Assembly: GCA_036567785.1 (NCBI GenBank)
Contig: DATCTV010000062.1
Coordinates: 186,001 to 250,000, forward strand
Length of the DNA: 64,000 bases
Direction of reading: 5' to 3'
From: Desulfomonilia bacterium
GTDB lineage: Bacteria > Desulfobacterota > Desulfomonilia > UBA1062
Below, piece by piece: positions 40,927 to 43,574 of the stretch. The notes beneath the pieces were generated by a model, which was not told the origin of the DNA, searched no databases, and was given only the letters and a program-made list of their open reading frames with translations. The translations under genes were made by a program, and so were the position numbers. Positions within the stretch are counted from its first letter, which is position 1. Every line of letters begins with the position of its first letter.

Positions 40927-41934
40927 TTATAGATATGGCTTCAAAAAAGTTCCGAGTGCAGTATAGTGAAACAGCCTGTCATAATCGATGATTCCCGCCA
41001 GCGCCCTTGAATGGATGCGAATGCCTTTTTCTTCAAGAACTGCAATGGGATTGAGTCCGCCTGTTACTACTGAACCTATGCGGCCGCCACTGACAGGAAT
41101 ATCAAGCAGCGGCTGGCTGGGCCTGCCAATCAGTGTAAACCCGCCGAGCCCGGTTTTCTTGAGTTTGCTGTCAACATCATAAACCTTTTCAAGACAGTCC
41201 GAAGGGAACTCTCTGAATCCTGCGCCAATCCGGCCTTTTCCGGTTGATATAGCACCGGAGTTGTCAGTCATTCCACTCTTGATGAATATCTCCAAGGGAT
41301 CAAGACTCGTGCCGTCATACATTATGATTTCAGTAAATCTCGATGGTTTGAAATCCCTTATCTCGAGCAGACCGCCAAACTTTGATATCATGGGAATCCC
41401 AGCCTTCAGCAACACTCCGTTCAAGGTTATAGAACAAACAGTGCCTATGCCGACCATACCATCTGGAACCGTAGTCGATCCGATGTTTTCCCCGGGCCCG
41501 AAAAGGGTTATCATTTCACCCATGGCGAAGCCGTTCTCGTATACCTGATAGATTGATTCGATATTATCTTTCACCTGTCCCGGTTTGACGATTGATATAT
41601 TTACTATGACGGTTCCGGATTGTTCCTTGAGGTCAAAGCTCATTTTGTATGTGATCTGATCAATTTTTGCGGAGAGAAATCCCACTCTTTCAATGATCCT
41701 GGAAGATTCAATTTCCCTCAGGCCTGTTTCGGTGATGATTCGACCCTTTCTCCCTATTTTTGATGTCAATCCTTCATCATCGAGATCCTTCAGGTACATC
41801 CTGATTGCCCGTTCGCTCATTGACTGGCCGGCATACCTGAGTTCATCCATAATATGAGCGCTTCCCAGAGGTTTCCCTGCATCCCTGAGGACATTAAGGA
41901 TGAGCATTTTCTTTCTGGTTTTTCTTTCTTCCAT
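40927..41934 (-). CDS. nrpR: NrpR-like nitrogen transcriptional repressor
   Basis: A 335-residue regulator with an N-terminal winged helix (residues 1-70; GSAHIMDELRYAGQSMSERAIRMYLKDL) and a single NrpR regulatory domain (about 80-320). The hinge text RVGFLSAKIDQITYKMSFDL and the GVLLKAGIP ... KFGGLLEI region match archaeal NrpR, which represses nitrogen genes and lets go when 2-oxoglutarate rises. It is divergent from gdhA, and three palindromes lie in the shared 311-base gap. This places it as the likely controller of glutamate dehydrogenase and perhaps of itself. Bacterial NrpR function is much less studied than the methanogen protein. Confidence 0.88.
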   Translation of the reverse strand: MEERKTRKKMLILNVLRDAGKPLGSAHIMDELRYAGQSMSERAIRMYLKDLDDEGLTSKIGRKGRIITETGLREIESSRIIERVGFLSAKIDQITYKMSFDLKEQSGTVIVNISIVKPGQVKDNIESIYQVYENGFAMGEMITLFGPGENIGSTTVPDGMVGIGTVCSITLNGVLLKAGIPMISKFGGLLEIRDFKPSRFTEIIMYDGTSLDPLEIFIKSGMTDNSGAISTGKGRIGAGFREFPSDCLEKVYDVDSKLKKTGLGGFTLIGRPSQPLLDIPVSGGRIGSVVTGGLNPIAVLEEKGIRIHSRALAGIIDYDRLFHYTALGTFLKPYL

Positions 41935-42046
41935 AAAGCCTTTTTCCTGTAATTTAACTCCCGTGTCAAGGAAGTGAATACGTAATTTTGCCGGTCGAGT
42001 ATTATTTTATAGCGATTTTATCAAATCAAATAACCGTTTGAAAATG

Positions 42047-42058
42047 GGCAAAAATGCC
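42047..42058. promoter_or_regulatory. candidate NrpR operator 1
   Basis: GGCA-AAAA-TGCC palindrome. Read on the minus strand it lies in TAACGGCATTTTTGCCCA, which has the same TAACGGCA left edge as site 2. Confidence 0.55.
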
Positions 42059-42085
42059 GTTAACAAAAATATAATATTTTGATAA

Positions 42086-42099
42086 CGGCAAATATGCCG
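42086..42099. promoter_or_regulatory. candidate NrpR operator 2
   Basis: CGGCA-AATA-TGCCG palindrome within ATAACGGCAAATATGCCG, followed by CAATAAAA. Its centre is 40 bp from the centre of site 1, about four helical turns, so both could be bound on one face. Confidence 0.65.
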
Positions 42100-42144
42100 C
42101 AATAAAAATGACTTGTAAAGACTCTATAAAAGCCACCAAGCGTG

Positions 42145-42173
42145 TTGACTCGATGTGTTTATAGTGATAAAAA
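42145..42173 (+). promoter_or_regulatory. possible gdhA promoter
   Basis: TTGACT (42145-42150), 17 nt, then TAAAAA (42168-42173). The -35 is good and the -10 moderate. Site 3 would lie just downstream of the start of transcription, fitting a roadblock or repressor position. Confidence 0.4.
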
Positions 42174-42195
42174 ACAATTAGAAAGATAGGTTAAA

Positions 42196-42211
42196 CGGCA
42201 ATAAATTGCCG
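42196..42211. promoter_or_regulatory. candidate NrpR operator 3
   Basis: CGGCAA-TAAA-TTGCCG palindrome, preceded by TAAA and followed by TAATAAAA, so its flanks match site 2 (AACGGCAA ... GCCG-n-AATAAAA). The GGCA/TGCC spacing is 6 rather than 4. It ends 34 nt before the gdhA ATG. Confidence 0.65.
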
Positions 42212-42245
42212 TAATAAAATACTCAACACACTACATGGAGGTAGT

Positions 42246-43574
42246 ATGATTAAAGAGTTGTTTGAAAAGGTAAAAGCCAAGAATCCGGGAGAATTGGAGT
42301 TTCATCAGGCGGTATGGGAAGTTTTCGAATCACTGGAAAAATTCATCGACAAAAATCCCAGATACAGAAAGGCCAAGGTTCTGGAAAGAATTGTTGAACC
42401 TGAGCGGGTAATAATGTTCCGTGTGCCATGGGTGGATGACAAAGGTGAGATTCAGGTAAATCGTGGTTTCCGTATACAGATGAACAGCGCAATCGGTCCA
42501 TATAAGGGCGGTCTTCGATTTCATCCAAGCGTAAATCTGGGCATACTTAAATTTCTTGCATTTGAGCAGGTTTTCAAAAACTCCCTTACGACTCTTCCAA
42601 TGGGAGGAGGAAAAGGCGGTTCGGATTTCGATCCCAAAGGCAAGAGTGATGCTGAAGTGATGCGTTTCTGCCAGAGCTTTATGTCCGAACTGTTCCGCCA
42701 CATCGGGCAATTTACAGATGTTCCGGCCGGTGACATCGGTGTCGGCGGCAGAGAGATCGGTTTCCTGTATGGTCAGTATAAAAGATTGGCAAATGAAGTG
42801 ACAGGGGTGCTTACCGGCAAAGGTCTTACCTGGGGTGGAAGCCTTATAAGGCCTGAGGCCACAGGTTATGGCGCCACATATTTTGCTCAGGAAATGCTAG
42901 CAACAAGAAAGGAAAAAATTGACGGCAAAATAGTTGCGGTATCGGGTTCGGGCAATGTTGCACAGTATACTGTAGAAAAGTGCAATCAACTTGGAGCAAA
43001 GGTCGTTACGCTATCCGATTCCGATGGCACGATCGTTGACGAAGCCGGTATTGATGCCGAAAAGCTTGCATATGTAATGGAACTAAAAAACATTACACGT
43101 GGCCGGATAAAAGAATATGTGAAGAAGTATCCGAAAGCAAAATATTATGAAGGAAAACGACCGTGGTTTGTGAAATGTGATGTGGCATTTCCTTCTGCAA
43201 CGCAGAATGAAATCAGCAGAAAGGATGCCGAAACTCTGGTTAAGAACGGCTGCATATGTGTGTCTGAGGGTGCAAATATGCCGACCGAACCCGGTGGAAT
43301 AGAAATCTTCATCAAGGCAAAGATTCTGTATGGCCCGGGAAAGGCGGCCAACGCTGGAGGGGTCGCAACTTCCGGCCTTGAAATGAGCCAGAACAGCATG
43401 AGGCTTTCATGGTCAAGAGACGAGGTGGATGCAAACCTGAAGAAGATCATGGAGAGCATTCATGAAACCTGTGTAAAATATGGCAAGGATGGAAAATACA
43501 TTAACTATGTGAACGGTGCCAATATAGGCGGGTTTGTAAAAGTAGCAGATGCAATGATTGATCAGGGCGTATAA
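42246..43574 (+). CDS. gdhA: glutamate dehydrogenase (hexameric, NADP type)
   Basis: A 442-residue glutamate dehydrogenase that joins ammonium and 2-oxoglutarate. The long N-terminal part and the text GPYKGGLRFHPSVN, TLPMGGGKGGSDFDPKGKS and PAGDIGVGGREIGFL match the hexameric NADP-dependent class I (GdhA) enzymes. The Rossmann motif is VAVSGSGNVAQYT. GGAGG precedes the ATG. Divergent from nrpR, with palindromic sites between them; a terminator follows at 43600. Its control by an NrpR-like protein fits the pathway, since 2-oxoglutarate is both substrate and NrpR signal. Confidence 0.96.
   Translation: MIKELFEKVKAKNPGELEFHQAVWEVFESLEKFIDKNPRYRKAKVLERIVEPERVIMFRVPWVDDKGEIQVNRGFRIQMNSAIGPYKGGLRFHPSVNLGILKFLAFEQVFKNSLTTLPMGGGKGGSDFDPKGKSDAEVMRFCQSFMSELFRHIGQFTDVPAGDIGVGGREIGFLYGQYKRLANEVTGVLTGKGLTWGGSLIRPEATGYGATYFAQEMLATRKEKIDGKIVAVSGSGNVAQYTVEKCNQLGAKVVTLSDSDGTIVDEAGIDAEKLAYVMELKNITRGRIKEYVKKYPKAKYYEGKRPWFVKCDVAFPSATQNEISRKDAETLVKNGCICVSEGANMPTEPGGIEIFIKAKILYGPGKAANAGGVATSGLEMSQNSMRLSWSRDEVDANLKKIMESIHETCVKYGKDGKYINYVNGANIGGFVKVADAMIDQGV

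Follow-up and report, generated by a model that had tools for sequence, protein, structure and literature searches.

Two divergent genes flank a 311-bp intergenic control region (41935..42245) in the stretch of Desulfomonilia DNA analysed here (64,000 nucleotides; hereafter the window): an nrpR-like regulator gene on the minus strand (40927..41934, 335 aa) and gdhA on the plus strand (42246..43574, 442 aa). A profile search identified the regulator as NrpR-like (HTH_12 plus NRD1_2, E 8e-81), with an N-terminal winged helix (HTH_12, 59.8 bits, residues 10-74) and an NRD1_2 match of 271 bits against a curated cut-off of 25, and the gdhA product matched the equivalog model for NADP-specific glutamate dehydrogenase, confirming the identities that the first-pass annotation had given to both neighbours. 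The NRD is present as one stretch, placing the window protein outside the two-NRD subtype and setting it apart from the NrpR of Methanococcus maripaludis, which has two NRD domains. Single-NRD forms of NrpR exist in archaea, and one versus two NRD domains separates NrpR subtypes, not the family. For an AlphaFold model of the protein (mean pLDDT 89, with low-confidence residues 79-83 between the two domains), the best PDB match was 3nek, the nitrogen repressor-like protein MJ0159 of Methanocaldococcus jannaschii (Foldseek E 2e-20, TM 0.9 over the target). The two proteins share the NRD fold and ~30% identity, although the 238-residue 3nek chain matches the NRD part alone, residues 79-323 of the window protein. 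In the NrpR tree the end branch of the window NrpR is also long (0.77), and the protein may evolve faster than its relatives.

The control region contains three palindromes with GGCA and TGCC half-sites. From the nrpR side, these candidate operators are GGCAAAAATGCC (42047-42058; GGCA-AAAA-TGCC), CGGCAAATATGCCG (42086-42099; CGGCA-AATA-TGCCG, core starting at 42087) and CGGCAATAAATTGCCG (42196-42211; CGGCA-ATAAAT-TGCCG, core 42197-42210), the last lying 34 bp before the gdhA ATG. Their spacers are 4, 4 and 6 bp, with no N5 site. The first-pass annotation had placed three GGCA-N(4-6)-TGCC palindromes at these positions, sites 1 and 2 being 40 bp apart, and both statements hold, the distance being measured start to start. 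It had also described a shared core with shared flanks; the core is indeed common to all three, but the AACGGCA and AATAAAA flanks are true of sites 2 and 3, and site 1 has AACGGCA solely on the opposite strand. A single match of this kind means little, because GGCA-N4..6-TGCC occurs 10 times in the window compared with 4.0 +/- 2.0 in shuffles.

An alignment of twelve NrpR proteins, used to scan species genomes, yielded 80 named loci, mostly metagenome-assembled and named by record title; taxon counts are rough, and gene calls in the high-GC loci are simple open-frame calls. We examined 700 bp upstream of nrpR and counted the 76 loci for which 300 bp or more of upstream sequence was available. 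Sites were present in 69 of these 76 upstream regions, and no exact site was found in the other seven, some planctomycete loci among them. The 76 regions together held 101 N4 sites, 71 N6 sites and four N5 sites, with 0-3 for each of the spacings 2, 3 and 7-10, and sixteen control half-sites gave far fewer matches in the same DNA. A divergent neighbour started less than 900 bp away in 64 loci (gdhA in 20, a glutamate-synthase-like gene in 44), tying nrpR to glutamate genes, and 62 of the 64 carried sites. Within these 62 loci the target-proximal site was N6 in 52 and the nrpR-proximal site was N4 in 61, an order that was the same whether the partner was gdhA or the glutamate-synthase-like gene. 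The window, which reads 6-4-4 from gdhA to nrpR, is among the standard patterns of its relatives. After the window was added and near-copies were removed, the resulting 62 nonredundant gaps contained 88 N4, 0 N5 and 63 N6 sites, compared with 0.1-0.2 expected from block shuffling. That the palindromes arose by chance or from base composition, or are weak RNA hairpins, is hardly credible: isolated GGCA-N4..6-TGCC matches are frequent in the genome, inside genes, but three within the one 311-bp nrpR-gdhA gap have P ~1e-6, spacing, order and position are conserved in many genera, a footprint that contradicts chance, and a 4-bp stem is, in our judgement, too short for a terminator.

In the first NrpR group, to which the window protein belongs, the commonest one-base half-site variant was GGTA, and full GGTA-N6-TACC sites were found in L105 and L124. 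Six loci (L082, L085, L088, L093, L096 and L099) have a second, weaker N6 site with a GGTA-type half ~22 bp off the first on the target side, resembling a tandem operator. No convincing period emerged for helical phasing (looping) between the N6 and N4 sites.

The N6 sites also occupy a characteristic position relative to promoter elements. In 47 of 53 cases the promoter-side N6 site is preceded by a TTGA[CA] box whose start lies 20-56 bp upstream, compared with 2 of 53 in each of three control intervals, and promoter-like pairs around N6 with a score of at least 9 numbered 25 upstream and 5 downstream. The 47 upstream -35 boxes place N6 at the transcription start or shortly behind it, a position where a repressor acts. 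The window counterpart of this conserved box is a probable -35 box of the gdhA promoter, TTGACT (42145..42150, plus strand), accompanied by a weak -10, TAAAAA (42168-42173, plus strand); the distance of 52 bp from TTGACT to the N6 core, together with the weak -10, counts against the explanation that we favour below. We rejected the reading of the sites as sigma-54 (-24/-12) promoters or parts of them and give it next to no weight. The sites do contain GG and GC dinucleotides, GGCA..TGC resembles TGGCAC-N5-TTGCA, and nitrogen genes often use sigma-54, but such promoters need GG-N10-GC, equivalent here to a spacer of N7, and exact N7 occurs 0 times in the 62 gaps; the sites are, moreover, symmetric and downstream of a sigma-70 type -35 box. 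We likewise dropped, as a general rule, the placement of N4 downstream of the nrpR promoter. Promoter-like matches were equally common on both sides of N4, making autoregulation less certain than control of gdhA.

A second bacterial NrpR group (L017, L018, L021-L025, L027, L028, L031, L033, L035, L040, L044 and L045), from the same phylum and with ~35-40% identity to the window protein, also has a single NRD and is often tied to gdhA. Several of its loci are co-directional nrpR-gdhA operons, unlike the divergent genes of the window. In this group too the N6 operator lies just past the promoter: 14 of 16 loci have GG[ACT]A-N6-T[AGT]CC at a distance of 32-40 bp after TTGAC. The half-sites are GGAA-type or mixed, with the consensus GG(A/C)A-N6-T(G/T)CC, and spacer-4 sites were found in none of the 16 loci, in contrast to the window. 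Three loci have exact GGAA-N6-TTCC, the M. maripaludis NrpR operator and the sequence that the first-pass annotation also gave for methanogen NrpR; the NrpR operator of Methanosarcina mazei is GGTA-N6-TACC. The gdhA-side site of the window (42197-42210) conforms to GGNA-N6-TNCC, while the two nrpR-side sites (42047 and 42087) lack the 6-bp spacer and have instead the spacer of 4 that relatives keep as a separate class. Judged by these sites, the predicted bacterial N6 operator is GGNA-N6-TNCC, with the third base mostly C in the window's group; the candidate gdhA site varies the known operator at its third base, and the candidate N4 sites vary its spacing. The suggestion in the first-pass annotation of a different bacterial operator thus survives in part: N6 departs from the archaeal operator only in the third base and relatives have the exact GGAA-N6-TTCC, but the N4 class on the nrpR side is unusual.

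For 84 NrpR proteins placed on a tree, parsimony gave nine switches of partner between gdhA and the glutamate-synthase-like gene, at least five of them on well-supported branches, and the operator layout was unchanged through these switches. One further divergent partner (L147), identified by eye as resembling glutamine synthetase, has the layout 6-4-4. In genome G074, a glutamate-synthase-like gene unlinked to nrpR (L279) has N4 and N6 sites in its upstream gap, and the nrpR of that genome (L051) has no sites at its own locus. No convincing sites were found at gdhA copies away from nrpR in genomes where nrpR faces a glutamate-synthase-like gene. These observations bear on the possibility that the sites are operators of another regulator of glutamate synthesis genes to which nrpR is merely adjacent. 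Most neighbours of the sites are glutamate genes anyway, but the persistence of the sites beside nrpR through its changes of neighbour, their presence on nrpR's own side, the lack of clear sites at distant gdhA copies and the agreement, in the second NrpR group, between the N6 class and the operator of archaeal NrpR make another regulator improbable. A third arrangement occurs in L062 (G018:C85) and L063 (G009:C35), in which gdhA is followed on the same strand by a divergent NRD protein; the gdhA copies of these genomes (L229 and L230) have no clear operator in front.

Taken together, the conservation, fixed order and promoter position support the earlier proposal that the palindromes are putative operators of the NrpR-like repressor acting on gdhA, and from the sequence comparisons we consider it very likely that they are operators of the adjacent NrpR-like protein, placed to control gdhA. 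A dimer of the winged-helix protein would block gdhA transcription by binding GGNA-N6-TNCC immediately past the gdhA promoter elements, and would also bind GGCA-N4-TGCC on its own side, most likely controlling its own gene. If the protein behaves as archaeal NrpR does, it would be released by 2-oxoglutarate, the level of which is high under nitrogen shortage, and the substrate of glutamate dehydrogenase would thus induce the enzyme consuming it; on this analogy, 2-oxoglutarate is probably the ligand of the window protein. That NrpR instead activates gdhA from these sites, or responds not to 2-oxoglutarate but to another signal such as glutamate, is rather unlikely. Bacteria often rely on gdhA under abundant ammonium, which would suit such a scheme, but the N6 sites come after the -35/-10 region, as expected of a repressor, and in archaea NrpR represses until 2-oxoglutarate releases it (PMC4902934, PMC11957540). 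The predicted repressor system of the window shares with archaeal NrpR (M. maripaludis and M. mazei) the NRD domain family and winged helix, a palindromic operator of the GGNA-N6-TNCC type, nitrogen assimilation targets and the repressor position. It differs in the C at the third operator base, in the extra N4 class beside the regulator's own gene and in the usual bacterial target, which is only gdhA or the glutamate-synthase-like gene, not nif, glnA or amt. The autoregulation predicted for the window nrpR would be a further difference, as the level of archaeal NrpR has been reported to be independent of nitrogen supply (PMC9765008).

The predicted regulon in the window organism, as judged from pattern searches of the genome together with targeted stretches, appears to be local, comprising nrpR and gdhA. 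GGCAWWWWTGCC occurs at 15 places in the genome, of which two are the window operator sites, 12 are in genes and one is intergenic (C33:25883) with no clear target. GGCAWNNNNWTGCC occurs at 30 places, one being the window N6 site, and 27 others were examined, leaving out C43:60778 and C52:29792. Among the 25 examined first, two were intergenic: C28:108127 lies 163 bp ahead of a lipoprotein-like gene, whereas C60:75383 precedes no gene. The two further places were both in open frames. A/T-edged core matches elsewhere in the genome were nearly all inside genes, and at the places examined no further intergenic target from the genome-wide core scan was convincing. A scan for the palindrome before glnA, amtB and other nitrogen genes had been proposed as a check, and its outcome did not bear out the expectation: our gene-name search, which took in glnA, amt and gltB, found no site before any of these in the window organism's own genome, even with relaxed half-sites, and the strict genome-wide scan would reveal exact-core sites before glnB or nif. 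One relaxed N4 match was found upstream of a distant glutamine-synthetase-like gene. Since no site precedes glnA, amt or gltB, the regulon looks local, and we rejected a global nitrogen regulon. This lack of sites, which sets the genome apart from archaeal NrpR regulons, counts against the favoured explanation, as do the seven loci in which no exact site was found and the long branch of the window NrpR.

NrpR is known as an archaeal nitrogen regulator, and these sites give a concrete predicted operator code and target in bacteria, in which a single variable base connects the bacterial and archaeal operators and from which controlled genes can be predicted. The same sites and layout are found in dozens of other bacteria, suggesting that glutamate synthesis is under a local switch in Thermodesulfobacteriota and, judging from record titles, in several other phyla (e.g., Planctomycetota and Elusimicrobiota). 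A search of the open literature, with subscription journals and regulon databases outside its scope, found no papers on bacterial NrpR operators, and a 2004 paper on the regulons of delta-proteobacteria leaves nitrogen out. The comparison also exposes a conserved two-spacing design that is testable with one protein and two short DNA fragments. Tentatively, and with the odds against it, one regulator may read the two spacings, N6 at the target and N4 at its own gene in a fixed order across lineages, through different protein states (e.g., free and 2-oxoglutarate-bound). If true, such two-state reading of N4 and N6 would let a single signal control the regulator and its target in opposite directions or to graded extents.

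The glutamate-synthase-like family, a predicted NrpR target, consists of proteins of ~530-550 aa (L047:4485-6119, L055:5990-7582 and homologues in L081-L160) with a cysteine-rich N-terminus, SGLCTLCRADCxGKCE. Four examples gave a weak, above-threshold match to PF01645 (58-62 bits), and no NCBIfam model was matched by the two searched (L047 and L055). A long gene (873-894 aa) lies near gdhA in L049, L053 and L063; its N-terminus is similar in L049 and L063, and the L053 gene is of like size. In L113, L157 and L138, the glutamate-synthase-like gene is downstream of genes identified by eye as encoding NuoE/NuoF/HoxU-like subunits.
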